A stretch of DNA of 45,480 nucleotides, taken from a virus. Where the stretch lies: positions 1 through 45,480 of IMG/VR virus record IMGVR_UViG_3300025647_000063; one strand, written 5' to 3'. The translations under genes and the position numbers were made by a program. This document shows positions 1 through 31,600 of this stretch, piece by piece; positions within the stretch are counted from its first letter, which is position 1, and each line of letters starts with the position of its first letter. Below the pieces are notes generated by a model that ran no database searches, was not told where the DNA came from, and saw only the letters and a program-made list of their open reading frames with translations.

Positions 1-12
1 ATACCCAGCTAA

Positions 13-120
13 ATGTCATTTTGTCATACCCTCCCCCCCCAGGCCATATAGGACGCGGCCTGTAGACCACCGTAGGATAGTTATCCTAACATGACTTAAT
101 GTCATGTGACACTTTGTCAT
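13..120. promoter_or_regulatory. Cluster of palindromic operator-like sites
   Basis: Four short dyads lie close together. ATGTCATTTTGTCAT (13-27) is a degenerate copy. TAGGATAGTTATCCTA (73-88) is a perfect 7-2-7 palindrome. ATGACTTAATGTCAT (91-105) and GTGACACTTTGTCAT (106-120) abut each other. The same ATGACA-CTT-TGTCAT pattern recurs at 5059-5073, 5323-5337 and 5341-5355. No gene lies here. Inferred to bind a phage regulator; the protein is unknown. Confidence 0.5.
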
Positions 121-4464: not shown

Positions 4465-4719
4465 TTAAATCTTAGGTGGTGCTATTTTTTTGGCCTTTGC
4501 TGGTGGTACATCTTCTTTATTTACCGTTCCACCTTCGGCCTGTTTATCTTTTGGCTTCTCAGCTTGAACAAATTGTGACTGTTCTGGTGCTTCGCCTGGT
4601 TCACCTTCTAACAACTTCCAATCATCCGGTGATTCATGAAAAAGCTTCTTACTGATAACCATCACTTTTCCGTTCTTGTGTTCTACTTTCAATTCGTGGT
4701 CTTGCAATTTATCACCCAT
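4465..4719 (-). CDS. Small acidic/lysine-rich protein (84 aa)
   Basis: It has a short folded N-terminus with a strand-rich segment, then a low-complexity tail of Glu, Pro, Lys and Ala (from about residue 40). This composition is common in small phage head-associated or accessory proteins, but no family is certain. It ends 6 nt before the HNH gene and is the first gene after the leftward promoter at 4761-4789. The ribosome site is TAGGA. Confidence 0.6.
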   Translation of the reverse strand: MGDKLQDHELKVEHKNGKVMVISKKLFHESPDDWKLLEGEPGEAPEQSQFVQAEKPKDKQAEGGTVNKEDVPPAKAKKIAPPKI

Positions 4720-4731
4720 GGGATATTCCTA

Positions 4732-4761
4732 TTTAAGTTAGTTAACGTTAACGCGCTTAAA
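4732..4761. promoter_or_regulatory. 30-bp palindromic operator over the leftward promoter
   Basis: GTTAACGTTAAC (4741-4752) is a perfect 12-bp palindrome. It is centred exactly inside a second dyad, TTTAAG (4732-4737) and CTTAAA (4756-4761). The right edge touches the -10 box of the leftward promoter, as a repressor operator would. The repressor is unidentified. Confidence 0.6.
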
Positions 4762-4789
4762 TAATAAGCTTTTTATATCAATTTCGCAA
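4761..4789 (-). promoter_or_regulatory. Leftward sigma70-like promoter
   Basis: On the minus strand, TTGCGA (4784-4789) and TATTAT (4761-4766) are separated by exactly 17 bp. It should drive the 4465-4719 and HNH genes. The palindromic operator at 4732-4761 overlaps its start region. Confidence 0.6.
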
Positions 4790-4803
4790 TAATATCGTAA
4801 TAC

Positions 4804-5317
4804 GGTAAAAAATAATCCCCGTCCCGCTTTTTTAACCATCCGTCCTGATTTCGTCCTGATTTACTTGGACGGCTGAAACCCTTATATGGCGTGGCTTACA
4901 GAGCATCTTCAAAAAGTACGTCCTGGTTTGAACGGGACAGCGGGACGGCTGAAACCCTTATATGGCGTGGCTTACAGAGCATCCGTCCTAAAATATAATA
5001 TTACACCCCCTAAACTTTTTAAAAAGGGTATTTTCTGTTTATGGTCATTTTAACCAATATGACACTTTGTCGTACCCTTTTTATTTATATACTATATATC
5101 CTTGTTTCAAATACTTTTGGGGGTCATAATATAATATTTTAGGACGGATGGTCTACAGGCCGCGTGGTTAGTACGATCCAGCCGTCCCGCAATCCCGTTC
5201 AAACCAGGACGGCACTTTTCGCAACTCCCCTGCAGCCCTTGTGTGGCCTACGTTTCAGCCGTCCAAGTAAAAAATGCAAAATCAGGACGTAAATCAGGAC
5301 GGGTACTATTTTTTACC
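4804..5317. repeat. About 515-bp imperfect palindrome between divergent promoters
   Basis: Matched arm segments share one centre near 5065: TTTACTTGGACGGCTGAAAC (4860-4879) with 5252-5271; CGTCCTGGTTTGAACGGGA (4919-4937) with 5193-5211; GCGGGACGGCTG (4940-4951) with 5179-5190; CATCCGTCCTAAAATAT (from 4980) with the complement ending at 5150. Outer GGTAAAAAAT (4804-4813) pairs with 5308-5317, and inner AAAAAGGGTA (5021-5030) with 5073-5082. The operator-like ATGACACTTTGTCGT (5059-5073) sits at the centre. No gene was found in 4720-5438. Confidence 0.8.
4867..4983. repeat. 41-bp perfect direct repeat inside the left arm
   Basis: Bases 4867-4907 and 4943-4983 are identical over 41 bp, from GGACGGCTGAAACCC to CAGAGCATC. 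They are 76 bp apart. Only one related, diverged copy is seen in the right arm (about 5240-5265), so the left arm has duplicated part of itself. Confidence 0.85.
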
Positions 5318-5322
5318 ATAGT

Positions 5323-5355
5323 ATGACACTTTGTCATATAGTGACACTTTGTCAT
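5323..5355. promoter_or_regulatory. Two operator-like dyads upstream of the rightward promoter
   Basis: ATGACACTTTGTCAT (5323-5337) is a perfect 6-3-6 palindrome. GTGACACTTTGTCAT (5341-5355) differs by one base. They start 18 bp apart, about 23 bp upstream of the -35 box, which suits an activator or a looping repressor. The same site type is found at 91-120. Confidence 0.6.
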
Positions 5356-5377
5356 GTTGTTACGTGTAAAGTAAAAT

Positions 5378-5406
5378 TTGATTTTATGGGTGGTGTAAAT
5401 TATAAT
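5378..5406 (+). promoter_or_regulatory. Strong rightward early promoter
   Basis: TTGATT (5378-5383), a 17-bp spacer and a perfect TATAAT (5401-5406). The AT-rich element GTGTAAAGTAAAATTTG (5364-5380) overlaps the -35 box and is nearly the same as the element at 11144-11160 and 17632-17648. It drives the 5439-7246 operon. Confidence 0.75.
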
Positions 5407-5438: not shown

Positions 5439-5786
5439 ATGACCAAAACTGAAATGTGTGCAATACGGGCCAGCCTATCGATGTTTGCTTCTTACGATGA
5501 ATCTAAGGTGATGCGCGAAAGGTTACATCAATCTGCTTTACTGGATTATCAACCTAAATATACCCATTACGATTATTTAGACTTCATGAACCGCAACGCT
5601 GTAAGTATTGATAAAATCAGCCCCCAAGATACTAACCATCGTTATTACTTCTGTTTATTCAGCATACCAAGTCAACATGTATACGGGGATTGTGTTGAGG
5701 AATGTTTAGACAACGCCATCGATAGTGAACGTAGTGCGAATACCACCAGCCGTTCCATCAACCAACCGAATAGATCCGAAAACTAA
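5439..5786 (+). CDS. Hypothetical early protein (115 aa)
   Basis: First gene of the rightward early operon, 33 bp after the -10 box. The protein is soluble and mixed alpha/beta, with a serine/asparagine/arginine-rich C-terminus (from about residue 95) that looks disordered. No family recognised. The ribosome site is weak, so the mRNA leader must be short. First-gene position after a strong regulated promoter suggests a host-takeover or control role (inference). Confidence 0.55.
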   Translation: MTKTEMCAIRASLSMFASYDESKVMRERLHQSALLDYQPKYTHYDYLDFMNRNAVSIDKISPQDTNHRYYFCLFSIPSQHVYGDCVEECLDNAIDSERSANTTSRSINQPNRSEN

Positions 5787-6448: not shown

Positions 6449-6881
6449 TAGACTGATAGAAGTTTACACCCTAAGCCGTGAAACGGTATCGCTACCGTAT
6501 GAGAATTATCAGAATCGCCGGTTTGAATTCTTTGATGAACCAACACCCGAAACCACACCGCATAACCTCGAAGGTACCAAAATACCGGCGCCAACGTATT
6601 TCAGGAAACTAAACGCCAAGATAAAGGATTACATGGTGGACGGTAAAAAACGGTATGTAGCGGTACACCCTGAAATTGAGTATCTAATATCAATGCCGTA
6701 TACGCAGCAAATCGAAGCCCTGAACGAGCTGGTGGATAGATTGAATCAAAACGTGCATGAACATACCACAAGCGCTAAATATTGGCACAGTGAGTATGAC
6801 AGGCTGACTAAGGTAGTCACCGATTTCAAACAGTTACCGTGGTATAAACGAACGTGGTTAGCAATGCGAGGGAAACTATAA
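6441..6881 (+). CDS. Hypothetical early protein with C-terminal coiled coil (146 aa)
   Basis: It overlaps the previous gene by 8 nt. The N-terminal 60 residues contain a Pro/Thr-rich segment (EPTPETTPHNLEG). From about residue 85 a long helix with heptad-like spacing (IEALNELVDRLNQNVHEHTT) predicts a coiled coil, and the C-terminus (LPWYKRTWLAMRG) is amphipathic and basic. No family recognised. Confidence 0.55.
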   Translation: MNNRLIEVYTLSRETVSLPYENYQNRRFEFFDEPTPETTPHNLEGTKIPAPTYFRKLNAKIKDYMVDGKKRYVAVHPEIEYLISMPYTQQIEALNELVDRLNQNVHEHTTSAKYWHSEYDRLTKVVTDFKQLPWYKRTWLAMRGKL

Positions 6882-7246
6882 TGGCAATAGTAAATAGACC
6901 GGCCAGGACCGTCAATCAGCGTATTGTTAGGGAAGCGTTGTCATCCTGTGGGTTCAGTCTTTACACCGTGGCCCATGTGTCAGGCGTGTCGATTCACACG
7001 ATTAAAAATTGGGTATACAAAGACGAAGACCCTACCGCCGCATTAGTTCAATTTGTATTAGAAGGGATTGAAAAACTAGGTGAATGCCCGAAGCGACCGG
7101 ATTGGAGTAAAGAGATTGTAACTATATTGGAAATGCGGGAAACAATGTCAGTCATCAATATAGCCAAGCATTATGGTGTACCAACTAAAAATATTCACTC
7201 TCTGATTTACTTCTATCGTAAACACCCTGATAAAATAAAACGATAA
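6881..7246 (+). CDS. Helix-turn-helix regulator with two HTH-like segments (121 aa)
   Basis: The start at 6881 is chosen because GAGGGAAACTATA gives a ribosome site and the ATG overlaps the upstream TAA by one base. The first HTH lies at about residues 24-45 (LYTVAHVSGVSIHTIKNW) and the second near the C-terminus (SVINIAKHYGVPTKNIHSLI). The protein is basic at the end. As the last gene of the early rightward operon, just before a terminator, it could be a repressor or activator of the palindromic operators. No cleavage domain is present. Confidence 0.65.
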   Translation: MAIVNRPARTVNQRIVREALSSCGFSLYTVAHVSGVSIHTIKNWVYKDEDPTAALVQFVLEGIEKLGECPKRPDWSKEIVTILEMRETMSVINIAKHYGVPTKNIHSLIYFYRKHPDKIKR

Positions 7247-11117: not shown

Positions 11118-11160
11118 ACTATAAACCGAAGTAACCATAATATCAAATTTTATTTTACAG
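11118..11160 (-). promoter_or_regulatory. Promoter and upstream element of the 7310-11081 operon
   Basis: On the minus strand, TTGATA (11141-11146), a 17-bp spacer and TATAGT (11118-11123). The element CTGTAAAATAAAATTTG (11144-11160) overlaps the -35 box and is repeated exactly at 17632-17648 and nearly at 5364-5380. It overlaps the last codons of the primase gene. Confidence 0.7.
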
Positions 11161-13651
11161 ATTGTTTGAGGGGAACAACGACATTAGAGAAAACACGAAC
11201 CTGTTTGTGCTTTTCTACCTGTGCGGTATTGACTGATATACCGGTGAAAATGTACCGGCGTTTGTCACCATTGGATGCAATGGCTTCACGTTTTTTGATG
11301 ATGTTATGTTTAGATCCTTTAATTACTTTCGTAAATTTTGCAGGTGATAAAGTATTCTTTTGATTGTGTACTTGACAATGAAACAAATAAGCATCGTACA
11401 AATCATCGACATAAACATTAACCGAATTATCCAGAATACAAAATTCATCAACAAATGACGATAATATAAACGAGTCATACTGTATTTCTTCTATCATTTC
11501 TAACGTGGATTCAGCTTTAGTTACATCACCGGTTTGTATTACTCTTATCAATCCTTGTAAAGCCCATAGGAAGATGCCGGCCATACTATCGGGCGCACAC
11601 AACCTGTCAGCTAGGTATCTATCCTCAACACCGGCAAACGACCTGGTGAAGTGAAACGGCCACACCCTCGTAGCGTATGCACCGGACCCATCTAAAAAAT
11701 CCGGTAATTCATTACAGCTTATAATAATAATAGGCCATTTTGAACAACGATTACTGTCTTTGTACTTCACATCAAATGATATACCGTCACCGGCTGAAAG
11801 TGCTTTTAAACGGTTTAATACTCTGTCTTTAATTGCAGGGTGTAAAGCGTTTGCTTCGGGTACGATTGCTAATTTAGATTTTGACATGGTATTCATCATG
11901 TGATCTTCAATCAATGATTCTAGGTGTGGATTACACACGTTATGAACACCAATTAGTTTGGTCATAATGGTACTGTGAACACCCTTACCGGCGCGAGGTT
12001 TACCAACCAATACAGGTAACAGGTGGTATCTGTTATCGTTGATTAAAGTCAGCCCGTATAATTCCTGCAATTGGTTGTGTATACCCACATCACCGGGCCA
12101 CTGTGCATCGATAAACTTTAAAAATTCATCACAGTTAGCGTTAGGATTGTAATCATAACCAAGTGCGTTTAAGTCGAACAAATCCCTAGTGTGAGGTTTA
12201 AGTATTGCTGCACCGTTTACAATTTCAACAATACCATTTTGCATAATTACGCAATTACCGCTTTCCTTATTTCTATCGTTTAAATAGATACCGCGTTGCA
12301 AACCAGCTTCGTAACACATACGCTCGACCGTCACCATAATGTTATTGATTTTCGATGGTGCAAATTTCCACGGAATAAACATTTTATTTATCTTCGATTC
12401 AATTTCGTCATCTGGTTTTTCTTCCCAATGAATACCGTTAAACGTATAGAATGTTTTACCAAACCGTATCAATGTTTTACATGGGTATTCTTCACCAATA
12501 AATTTAATGGCCCAATCAACGACTGACATTTTATTAGTGATTATCGAACGGTTTGCCGCTGCTTCTTCGGGTGTTATATACGCTGCATCACCCTCGATTT
12601 CAACATGACCCATTAATGGTGTGTCATCTTCCTTGCGTGGTGATTTTGGTTTATTCAGTTTTGCGTTGGCCTCCCATCCTCCTGTTGGCTCTGGTGCCGC
12701 GTGTCCAGAAAAAACAGACGTTGCCGTTTTACAACCAAACGCGTTTCCCGAATGTTGCCAAGCATGCTTAACATACGAATAAAACATACGCTTGTCATAC
12801 GGTTTATCTTCCCATGGAGGTTCGCAACGAGGGTTATAATGTTCCCACATTAATTCCTGTGCTTCGGTGTAACCAATACCCCTATCGTAAGCATAAGCGG
12901 CCACTTTGAATACTGTGAATGAACCGGACCCCTCGACCGCAACCGGCGCCAAGTTTTTAAGGAAATGAACAAACTGTTGACGATAAACAGGATCATCATT
13001 TGCACCGGTACCACTATCGATTTTATTACGAGTCTGTGACCAGTTTTCTAGTTTTGCTTCATCGGATGGTGACAAAACGAAAGCCTGTTCGATTTCATCA
13101 ATTGTATAATTAAAATCAAGCTGGTTATTCACACTTACCGAATATTTAACAGGATTTGTGCGGTCTTTTAGATGATAGAAACCCGGCACCCTAGCGACTC
13201 TGGCAACGTCTGTAACTTGTTGGTCAGAATCAAGATACATTGCAATGCGTTTCTGCATTCGGCTGTACTGTGCGGCTGTGAGGCATCCTTCAACGGGCCA
13301 ATAAACATGACCATGTGTTGAATCGCGTTGCGACACGAAACCGGGCAATAACGGAAAATCTGTCGGTATATCTTTTCCGTCAACATCGGCAAATGCCCAA
13401 TCATAAGAAATAATATTATCAACAGTACGACCCAAACCATCTGTGGGATTGATAGTAATAAATACGCCAAAACCATTATTTTGTAATTGGTTTACTCTTG
13501 GTAGAACATCAGTAAGTTTGCCGTGAAAATTCTCAGGGAAAGTATTATCAAGACCGCTATCATTAAATAGTTGCCAGCAAACAACGGAATCACCGTCACC
13601 GCGCAATAGTTCAATAAATAGACGAGCCTGATCTAAATCAATGCTCGACAT
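11150..13651 (-). CDS. Primase-helicase (D5/P4-like, 833 aa)
   Basis: The N-terminal part (about 1-300) looks like a RepB/primase-polymerase module (IDLDQARLFIELLRGDGDS; SYDWAFADVDGK, with a probable D-x-D metal pair; HGHVYWPVEG). The C-terminal half is an SF3 helicase: Walker A GKPRAGKG near residue 550, then KLAIVPEAN as the Walker B region, and IIIISCNELPDF as motif C. It unwinds DNA and makes primers at the fork. The length fits phage and plasmid primase-helicases. Start at 13651 comes 1 nt after the upstream stop. Confidence 0.85.
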   Translation of the reverse strand: MSSIDLDQARLFIELLRGDGDSVVCWQLFNDSGLDNTFPENFHGKLTDVLPRVNQLQNNGFGVFITINPTDGLGRTVDNIISYDWAFADVDGKDIPTDFPLLPGFVSQRDSTHGHVYWPVEGCLTAAQYSRMQKRIAMYLDSDQQVTDVARVARVPGFYHLKDRTNPVKYSVSVNNQLDFNYTIDEIEQAFVLSPSDEAKLENWSQTRNKIDSGTGANDDPVYRQQFVHFLKNLAPVAVEGSGSFTVFKVAAYAYDRGIGYTEAQELMWEHYNPRCEPPWEDKPYDKRMFYSYVKHAWQHSGNAFGCKTATSVFSGHAAPEPTGGWEANAKLNKPKSPRKEDDTPLMGHVEIEGDAAYITPEEAAANRSIITNKMSVVDWAIKFIGEEYPCKTLIRFGKTFYTFNGIHWEEKPDDEIESKINKMFIPWKFAPSKINNIMVTVERMCYEAGLQRGIYLNDRNKESGNCVIMQNGIVEIVNGAAILKPHTRDLFDLNALGYDYNPNANCDEFLKFIDAQWPGDVGIHNQLQELYGLTLINDNRYHLLPVLVGKPRAGKGVHSTIMTKLIGVHNVCNPHLESLIEDHMMNTMSKSKLAIVPEANALHPAIKDRVLNRLKALSAGDGISFDVKYKDSNRCSKWPIIIISCNELPDFLDGSGAYATRVWPFHFTRSFAGVEDRYLADRLCAPDSMAGIFLWALQGLIRVIQTGDVTKAESTLEMIEEIQYDSFILSSFVDEFCILDNSVNVYVDDLYDAYLFHCQVHNQKNTLSPAKFTKVIKGSKHNIIKKREAIASNGDKRRYIFTGISVNTAQVEKHKQVRVFSNVVVPLKQSVK

Positions 13652-23004: not shown

Positions 23005-23460
23005 TTATTGATGATGGTAATTGCTTTCTACTTCTTTGGTAACAGAACTGAGTCTGTCTAACGCTTTACGGATAGGGGTCAACGAATCGTGTAATATAAT
23101 AGTTCTTATCATATCCTGTATATCATCACCTTTTCTAAAATAAGCAATGCTACCAAATAAAAACGCCTTACCTCTATCGTCAAGTGATTCACTACTTGTT
23201 AAAAACATGACTGGTATTTGACTTGTTTCAGGGTTGTTGAACAAATCCTCACATACATTTAAACCATTTCTTTTTGGCATAAACACATCGAGTACAATAA
23301 AATCCGGTTTGTGTTCTATTGTCTTTTCTATTACTAATAAAGGATCATCAAGGGTTATACATTTGAATTCAACAATTTCGGTAGATTCAAAATACCCTTT
23401 AATTATTTCAAGCGTAAGAAGATTATCATCGACAATTAAAACTGTTATCACACTGTTCAT
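23005..23460 (-). CDS. CheY-like response regulator (receiver domain, 151 aa)
   Basis: A complete receiver domain: D11-D12 (LIVDDN) for Mg2+, phosphoacceptor D58 (IVLDVFMPKRNG), T88 (VMFLTSSES), Y107 and K110 (AYFRKG). The C-terminal 30 residues add a helix with no DNA-binding or enzyme domain. All residues for phosphorylation are present, so it can probably accept phosphate from a host histidine kinase. Coupled by an ATGA overlap to the membrane coiled-coil gene 23457-23816. Such a gene is rare in tailed phages. Confidence 0.85.
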   Translation of the reverse strand: MNSVITVLIVDDNLLTLEIIKGYFESTEIVEFKCITLDDPLLVIEKTIEHKPDFIVLDVFMPKRNGLNVCEDLFNNPETSQIPVMFLTSSESLDDRGKAFLFGSIAYFRKGDDIQDMIRTIILHDSLTPIRKALDRLSSVTKEVESNYHHQ

Positions 23461-28629: not shown

Positions 28630-31600
28630 TTATGAGTAAGGTGCGCCACTAGCATCAAAGTATTGAGCCTGTGAATCTGTATTTCTAATTATCTGTATAA
28701 TATGGGCTTGCTGTCTTATAAGCACACTACCTGAATTTACAGTCATTCTAAGTTTGAATCGTGCCTCTGCGTTTGCTGCAAGTGTTACGAAAAAAGGAGG
28801 ACCAGAATAATTATACAAACCGCTTGCGTTATTAATCGGCCAAATTGTACCCGCATTAGTTTGTAGGGAAAAGTCAACTGAGCTATATGCCGAACCAGAT
28901 GATGTACACCAGGGTAATGGTATTATTACTGTTCTACTGTACGGTACAGCACTAATTACTACGTTTATTATTATTAAATCTACCGTGGTTGATGTCAAAG
29001 TACCTGTTGCATTCATTGTGAACACACCGGCGGCGGCGGTATCACCTATTATTTCTTCCGCATATAAACCACCATTAAAAACCGCTTTATTCAACCCGCT
29101 GTCAAACTCAATAAAAACATTATTATTGTTATCAATGAATTGAGCTATGTCGGTTTTTATTTTTAATGATGTTGCTGTTGGTGTAGCACCGAGTTGAATA
29201 AAACCAAGTACACCACCAGCACTAACCGTAAGTTGTGAAACTGCTCGATAACCGTCTAAATCATCATCTAACGTTGACGCTAACGTTAATGCACTTGTGG
29301 CGGTTGAACTGACACCCGTTACTGTACTTGATAAACTGGATATTGCTGTTGCATTGGTATCCGCTTTACTGTCTGCAGTTCCAGCCAATGTGTTCGCTGT
29401 ACCGGCTAACGTTAATGCACTTGTGGCGGTTGAACTGACACCCGTTACTGTACTTGATAAACTGGATATTGCTGTTGCATTGGTATCCGCTTTACTGTCT
29501 GCAGTTCCAGCCAATGTGTTCGCTGTACCGGCTAACGTTAATGCACTTGTGGCGGTTGAACTGACACCCGTTACTGTACTTGACAACGTGGATATTGCTG
29601 TTGCGTTGGTATCCGCTTTACCGTCTGCAGTTCCAGCCAATGTGTTCGCTGTACCGGCTAACGTTAATGCACTTGTAGCAGTTGAACTGACACCCGTTAC
29701 TGTACTTGACAACGTGGATATTGCTGTTGCGTTGGTATCCGCTTTACCGTCTGCAGATAATGCAAGCGCCGATGTAGCACCCAAACCAGTAATAGGATCA
29801 GCAATGGTGTTACTGATATTGGTTATGGACAGTGAATTTCCATCAACTTCTAATTGTGCCGATTGAACCAAACCATACGTTGCCGCTAAACCTGTTGTTG
29901 CGTTGTTTACAGTTGCGCTTACCGCACTTATAGCACTTGTATTACCATCAACATCAATATCAACTTGGTCCAATCTGTCAATGTTTGCATTTATCAAACT
30001 GGTTAAATCGGTACCTAACGAGGATACAGTCAAACTAAGTGCATCAAATGCTGTAGTGTTTCCATCAATATCAGTTTCAGCTTGTGTGATTCTACCAGCT
30101 AAAGCCGTTACACTAGAACCTTGTGATGCTGTCAATGATTCTAAGGTAAGTATTGATTGAGCTAACGAACCGCTTGGACCAATATCGATATTTAATTGGT
30201 TTATGGCATTGGCAAATGTGAAATTACGTTCACCCTGTTCGTAATTCTTCACACCCGAATTGACAAGCTGATTTAATAAATCAAGTTTGGTGTCGTAATC
30301 TTCTAATTGCAAAATAACTAAACTTGATACTTGATTGGTTATTTTACCATTGGCCGCGTCAATTTCTAACTGTGCATCAGTTATTAAACCATTCTGCAAG
30401 TCAAAATCATCTTGTACGGTTTGGGCGTAAGCTGTGAACGTTCCGGTATAACCATCAATGAAAACACCGGCTTCATTGGCTTTCAACACCACATCATTAT
30501 CAATTATGGTCTGTCTGGTAGCAATCAGACTGATATAGCTGTCAATTCCGTTCAGCGTGGTTTCGACGTTACTGAATGTAACCGTATTAGCGTTGTAATC
30601 AGTATTACTAACCTTACTGGTTATTTGACCAGCATTAGCGTCAATATCAATTTCAGCTTGTGTCACACGACCTGTTAAGTTGATTAAATCCTGTGTTTGG
30701 GCATCCGCTTTTCCTATTGTGATTGACTTGATAATAAATTCATCAGCAACAGTTTCACCCAACATTAACCTTACACGATTTACTGTACCGGAATAGTTAG
30801 ATAAACCAGTGAAATCAACCAACAATATAACCGGTCCTGTTAGCGCCGGTTCGTTAATTATATTTGCAAATGTTTCTGTACTTGCATTATCACGTTCAAT
30901 AATTACGGTACCGTCCCAACCTGTACCCGCTGTTCTTTCAATTGCAATTCTTAACAGTAGATTTTCAGTGGCTACATAATCTAATGCACTGTTTTCAATA
31001 TCAGCCCATGTAGTCGTAACCTGGTTTAACCCACTTGTAATTGTACCGTTTACAGCAACCCAACCCTGAACACTATCAAAGAAATTAAAACTGTGAGCAG
31101 GTTCAAGAGCCGCTATTGATTCGGACACAATAGCTGTTGCTGTTGCTGTTATTTGACCGGGAACAAGAGATAATTCAGCACTCAAATCATTGATTGAGTT
31201 TTCGTTTAATTCAACACGTTCAACGGTTGCTGTAATGCTGGCATTAACACCATCAATCAATAATGAAGCCTGAGTAAATACAGTATCGGTATAATTGAAA
31301 GCTCTGTTAACAATAGTTCCTGTAGACGGATCTATCCATATTAAAGCATCAACCAATGTTTCACCGGCTAATTGTCGTCTGCGTAATTCTTCCCTGGCTG
31401 CTGCAGTATCCGCAATACTTGATAATAATTGAACATCTGTGTTTTGACGATTTAGTATTTCTTGTCTTAACGCATTATTTGTATCAGCTCTAAAATCAAT
31501 AAAATCAACATCGATTTGTGCAATTGTTGTGTCAATATCATCAATTCTTAAATCAATCAAATCTGTTATTGCTTCGATTTGCGGTACAATTATTTCAACC

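Follow-up and report, generated by a model that had tools for sequence, protein, structure and literature searches.

Origins of phage-inducible chromosomal islands (PICIs) are described as "always" having two iteron sets that flank an AT-rich region (PMC6092414), and the Rep helicases of Staphylococcus aureus pathogenicity islands (SaPIs) recognise iterons through the C-terminal domain, apparently binding as two hexamers (PMC7581432). Here we describe a giant imperfect palindrome between two divergent operons of a marine phage (virus record IMGVR_UViG_3300025647_000063; the window is the whole record of 45,480 bases) and compare it with these origins. We propose, with a probability of about 0.7, that the palindrome is the bidirectional replication origin of the phage, with iterons flanking a melting core, and, as its probable initiator, we put forward the PrimPol/D5 primase-helicase that the phage itself encodes. 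This reading of the sequences is favoured by the constancy of mirror layout and spacing in relatives whose repeat sequence differs, by the AT-richness of the core, and by the presence in the phage of a gene for a self-loading primase-helicase from an iteron-binding family.

Architecture of the palindrome

Alignment of the window with its own reverse complement (BLASTN) yielded a single match, a 532-bp imperfect palindrome at 4795-5326 (547 columns, 66% identity, E 1e-59), in close agreement with the extent of 4804-5317 given in an earlier note on this DNA. Its gapped self-score was 168, compared to 17.0±3.0 in dinucleotide shuffles (maximum 27, n = 200) and to at most 40 across 120 other windows of the genome. 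The earlier note had listed at least four arm segments with a common centre at about 5065; five exact arms were found, of 11, 19, 12, and 17 bp centred on 5065.0 and of 20 bp centred on 5065.5. Small indels displace the centres of the outermost arms, to 5060.5 and 5071. The palindrome fills the gap between the leftward genes, which run from 4719, and the rightward genes, which run from 5439. No Rfam family matched the region above its gathering score, and the sub-threshold matches, all to miRNA hairpins, were judged to be chance.

The arms are arrays of one short site, present as 13 copies of GGACG (10 of them GGACGG) and one GGGAC, and 10 of the 15 GGACGG copies in the whole window fall in the palindrome. 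Measured from the middle of the core, with the strand in brackets, the left-arm sites lie at -79(-), -120(+), -144(-), -196(+), -211(-), -222(-), and -243(-), with GGGAC at about -129(+), and the right-arm sites at +79(+), +120(-), +144(+), +197(-), +222(+), and +234(+). The two arrays mirror each other in both position and orientation, and the arms are also alike between the iterons (78% over 148 bp). The core between the innermost iterons contains a 100-bp stretch that ranks among the least stable 0.3% of the 100-bp windows of the genome in duplex stability. The 41-bp direct duplication that had been noticed in the left arm is exact and consists of one iteron and a TGTAAGCCACG box, which makes the two iteron-plus-box units of that arm identical there. 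A second box, ACAGGCCGCGTGGTTA (ACAGGCCGCRTGGTTA), lies between inner iterons and is shared with a distant relative (L016, ACAGGCCGCATGGTTA in its arm), the two primases being about 33% identical. The operator-like site at the centre and the promoters just outside the arms, both proposed earlier, are likewise present, the promoters as consensus matches only (Table 1). A detached fragment of the proposed origin module (AGGACG and then CGGCCTGTAGACCACCG) was observed at window positions 1-120, about 5 kb from the palindrome, together with two operator-like sites (14-26 and 107-119).

Mirrored arrays in related and unrelated genomes

The primase-helicase ties the phage to marine siphovirus-type phages. 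Searching IMG/VR with the window primase by sequence alone returned no match, and its relatives were obtained by profile searches. Palindromes were present in the same gap in Vibrio phage 1.055.O (L006, E 2e-45), in 1.049.O (L010, 1e-44), in Shewanella phage 1/44 (L008, 3e-25), and in L016 (1e-21), L023 (6e-26), L014 (4e-6), and L025 (9e-36). The earlier note had named absence from close relatives as grounds for giving up the structure; the relatives carry it, and the self-alignment gave one inverted match with a common arm centre. The divergent gap was the most palindromic 700-bp stretch in 10 of the 12 genomes or loci scanned. The repeat was GTGGCAC in 1.055.O, 1.049.O, and Shewanella phage 1/44, GTGTCAC/GTGAGAC in 1.083.O and 2.096.O, TACGGGCA in L014, AGGACAG in L016 and L023, and GTGTCAC/GTGTCTC in L022. 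All 13 copies of GTGGCACA in the 47-kb L006 genome lay within the palindromic gap. The primase clade of L022 led us to expect a palindrome there as well; none was found within 10 kb of the primase, but the next piece of the contig (L025) contained one. TGACCA was rejected as a candidate iteron of L022, its copies falling in coding sequence. Scanning genome contigs yielded a single prophage primase, which was truncated, and no palindrome of large size. A fragment of the same primase family, matching in the N-terminal part only, was seen in a chromosome contig of Litorilituus lipolyticus (L054, 10001-10975).

The exact 41-bp duplication is a sign of recent local recombination, and the whole palindrome might be a recent inverted duplication, a mobile-element remnant, or an assembly artefact without function. 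However, several different genomes, obtained in separate studies and from separate isolates, have the same position and layout, which already contradicts such an origin, and direct reading of the palindrome ends revealed no target-site duplication; the likelihood of this explanation is close to negligible. Concerted evolution of the arms was not supported either, identity within the L006 and L008 genomes (79 and 76%) being similar to that between them (83 and 77%).

The geometry of the arrays was conserved more widely than the repeat. Offsets from the centre, with the leading sign giving the strand, were -79, +120, -144, +196, -222 (left) and +79, -120, +144, -197, +222 (right) in the window; -54, +118, -144, +198, -224 and +54, -118, +144, -198 in L016; and -52, +98, -120, -128, +182, -204 and +52, -98, +120, +128, -172, +194 in L006. 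The window and L016 have iteron steps, counted outward from the core, of about 41-65, 24, 53, and 25 bp; in L006 and L008, the steps of the left arm are 46, 22, 9, 54, and 22 bp. The order of site orientations was common to the window, L016, L006, and L008, and mirrored arrays likewise surround an AT-rich core in the latter three. The window and L016 share this spacing despite primases that are about 33% identical. Since the spacing is kept while the repeat sequence changes, what is conserved would be a protein assembly.

The palindrome, taken as single-stranded DNA, has a folding z-score of -16.6 and forms long paired arms, and an extruded cruciform or long hairpin could itself be functional, for example as a site of nicking or priming. 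However, some 70-80 bp separate the long near-perfect arms from the centre, so that extrusion would need a large open core, and the iteron spacing is kept in L009 and L014, where overall pairing is weak (self-scores 35 and 41) and L009 is mirrored as iterons. We consider a functional extruded structure very doubtful. The earlier note had offered a cruciform, an origin, and mirror-image regulatory arrays without choosing among them; the relatives favour the origin, and a cruciform is not needed.

A pattern based on the inner spacing only (AGGACGG-30/36-GCCGTCC-14/20-AGGACG) was run on IMG/VR and matched 13 stretches. Full two-sided arrays were found in three (L041, L047, and L053), which are GGACGG mirror arrays with the spacing of the window in GC-richer, unrelated virus contigs; the other matches (L042-L046 and L048-L052) were without full arrays and are probably chance. 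In the contig of L047 (L064), the array begins right after the stop codon of a PrimPol-VapE gene, and a VapE-like helicase is encoded in two of the three array contigs, including that of L053.

A further conserved element, TAGGGGCGA-N-TCGTCCATTAAAGTG (a small hairpin plus tail, in one to three copies), was observed always immediately right of the palindrome in five relatives (L006 45121-45190, L008 100-180, L009 190-290, L014 17440-17470, and L016 9690-9720); it was not found in the window.

The putative initiator and a proposed mechanism

The proposed initiator is a D5-type superfamily 3 (SF3) primase-helicase (Table 1). A profile of the primases matched SaPI5 PriRep1 (7ola, E 3e-21) and gave a weak match to RFX winged helices. 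In an AlphaFold2 model (mean predicted local distance difference test score 65; C-terminal domain mostly 65-85), a recognition helix is predicted at about residues 770-778, in SPAKFTKVIKGS, and Foldseek searches with the model returned structures of PrimPol, the SaPI5 primase-helicase, and asfarvirus PrimPol. The helix was SQTKIIRELNSS in L006 and L008, which carry GTGGCAC, and SQQKVIREINSS and SQGKVVREINSS in L009 and L022, respectively, which carry GTGTCAC/GTGTCTC. The L009 primase is closer overall to that of L006 (71%) than to that of L022 (61%), yet its helix and repeat group with L022. Across the few lineages compared, the predicted helix thus appears to change in step with the repeat, which is suggestive only because the sample is small.

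The palindrome might also be a partition-like (ParB/parS) or packaging-related site, since clustered repeats are typical of centromere-like sites and the annotation of Shewanella phage 1/44 includes a ParB-like protein. The arrays flank an AT-rich core as in origins, however, the repeats vary together with the primase helix, and none of the window genes struck us as ParB-like, no systematic search for such a gene having been made. A site of this kind seems highly improbable.

The palindrome could instead be a mirror-image transcriptional control array, in which a phage repressor or activator would act on the divergent promoters through the repeats as its operators, without any function in replication. 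It lies exactly between the divergent operons, promoter-like matches flank the arms with operator-like sites nearby, and the palindromes of another primase clade appear to include mirrored promoters. On the other hand, separate operator-like repeats sit outside the arms (TGACACTTTGTCA in the window and ACTGTTGCAACTGT-type in L006, L008, and L009), 13-14 sites over 480 bp are many for an operator, the repeat identity follows the recognition helix of the primase, and the same spacing recurs behind the PrimPol-VapE gene of an unrelated contig. We regard a purely transcriptional role as unlikely. Repeats of the types ACTGTTGCAACTGT and AACTGTTATAACTG were observed outside both arms near the divergent promoters of L006 (44640-44690 and 45340-45390), as well as in L008 and L009, and are probably operators of a separate regulator.

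Several observations weigh against an origin. The divergent gap of L007 was not palindromic, and no palindrome was found in the examined parts of L015, L019, and L021. In the other primase clade, the divergent gaps of L067 (10247-10627), L030 (43661-43974), and L031 (35812-36193) are palindromic without GC-rich iterons, and the arms of L067 seem to hold two mirrored promoters with a common CTTGGTTGGTG in the spacer; because of these, symmetry in a divergent gap may also serve transcription. An earlier distinction of a second primase clade without palindromes was dropped after these three gaps came to light. Independent pairs of iteron and helix are few (five repeat types), and the palindrome lies 6-8 kb from the initiator gene, unlike in PICIs.

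With replication as the preferred reading, copies of the primase-helicase would bind the GGACG iterons of each arm via their C-terminal winged helices. Because the arms mirror each other, two initiator oligomers facing opposite ways, each of them a hexamer if SaPI Rep is a guide, would assemble on either side of the AT-rich core, open it, and depart in opposite directions. Synthesis would start at the palindrome, between the divergent operons, and proceed in both directions. Through the promoters and operator-like sites beside the arms, early transcription would be coupled to the origin or timed. Whether the window represents a widespread family of marine tailed phages that replicate bidirectionally from giant, palindromic, iteron-based origins between divergent promoters, with repeat and recognition helix changing together under a fixed geometry, is in our judgement evenly balanced; such a family would imply a modular primase-helicase origin code in full phages, beyond the satellites to which this type of origin was thought unique.

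Table 1. Features of the palindrome region and of the putative initiator gene in the window.
Feature	Position	Strand	Basis or detail
Palindrome, proposed replication origin	4795..5326	.	Self-inverse BLASTN, shuffles, genome scan
Left iteron array	4819..4988	.	CCGTCC/CGTCC (minus) 4819, 4840, 4852, 4919, 4983; GGACGG (plus) 4867, 4943; GGGAC (plus) 4934; site map
Right iteron array	5142..5302	.	GGACGG/GGACG (plus) 5142, 5207, 5285, 5297; CCGTCC (minus) 5182, 5259; site map
AT-rich core between innermost iterons, proposed melting element	4989..5141	.	158 bp, 74% AT; duplex-stability ranking
41-bp direct duplication, copy 1 (iteron and box)	4867..4907	+	
41-bp direct duplication, copy 2	4943..4983	+	
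ACAGGCCGCGTGGTTA box	5155..5170	+	
Operator-like TATGACACTTTGTCGTA in core	5058..5074	+	
Two further operator-like TATGACACTTTGTCGTA copies, beside rightward promoters	5322..5356	+	Copies at 5322 and 5340
Leftward sigma-70-like promoter match	4761..4789	-	TTGCGA-17-TATTAT; consensus only
Two rightward sigma-70-like promoter matches	5349..5377, 5378..5406	+	Consensus only
First gene of leftward operon	4465..4719	-	84 aa, no assigned function
First gene of rightward operon	5439..5786	+	115 aa, no assigned function
Candidate phage helix-turn-helix regulators	595-789 and 6854-7246		
PrimPol/D5-type SF3 primase-helicase, proposed initiator	11150..13651	-	833 aa; Pfam/PHROG; SaPI5 PriRep1; fold search
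Predicted C-terminal winged-helix domain	11231..11467	-	Residues 729-807; AlphaFold2 model; RFX/Pox_D5 matches

The region contained 12 promoter matches, compared to 2.9±1.5 in shuffles (consensus only). Elsewhere in the window, ten near-identical 25-bp tandem repeats (GCCTGATAGCATGGCTCTATGGGTA) were seen at 188-441, intergenic between the helix-turn-helix gene and the terminase side, and a 16-bp repeat (TCGATTAAACGGTTAT) is present in 4.8 perfect copies at 2902-2978. A 126-bp coding tandem repeat (3.8 copies, 29279-29756) lies in a 1837-aa tail-tip-like protein, and an open reading frame at 23005-23460 resembles, by eye, a CheY-type response-regulator receiver, which is unusual for a phage.

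Comparison with described origins

The herpes simplex origin OriL sits between divergent genes. OriS and OriL are palindromic and have an AT-rich spacer between initiator boxes of opposite orientation (PMC12543377). The likeness is an analogy only, as these origins have an unrelated initiator (the superfamily 2 helicase UL9), serve another host domain, and are much shorter. The alpha protein of phage P4 is a primase-helicase fusion that binds iterons by its C-terminus. The P4 ori/crr differs from the window in sequences and layout, and we know of no giant palindrome between divergent promoters there. The alpha protein and its ori are also mentioned in PMC6092414. At the putative origin of SCCmec Cch2, a primase-C-terminal/D5-type helicase binds short repeats via its C-terminal domain (PMC7581432); this origin, unlike the palindrome, has few direct iterons downstream of the gene, and the Cch2 inverted repeats are dispensable for binding (PMC7581432).

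The SaPI/PICI origins are closest. Two oppositely oriented iteron sets around an AT-rich region are found in the window as mirrored arrays around a core of 74% AT, and the putative initiator is homologous, the window protein combining PrimPol, a D5 helicase, and a predicted C-terminal winged helix. A PICI origin, however, lies immediately 3' of the initiator gene, whereas that proposed here is between divergent operons, away from the gene; the PICI position was observed only in the unrelated L047/L064 contig. PICIs are satellites, whereas the window genome has terminase, portal, capsid, and tail genes of its own, and the two arms of its palindrome, about 250 bp each, mirror one another almost completely. 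The earlier note had known of no described phage control region like this one; the SaPI/PICI origins have the same plan, although the position and the giant palindrome differ. No paper on such a palindromic origin in these phages was found in the open-access literature, subscription journals not being covered.

If the proposed origin is real, the SaPI/PICI plan also serves tailed phages with their own structural genes, which bears on where satellite replicons came from. The relatives would then offer a set of initiator/iteron pairs with different specificities and a fixed geometry for studying how SF3/D5 helicases choose and open origins, as well as a sequence rule for locating origins in uncultured phages. 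The plan of iterons, AT-rich core, and iterons is known from SaPI/PICI satellites; what is new is that full phage genomes have it as a giant palindrome, placed between divergent promoters and 6-8 kb from the putative initiator gene.
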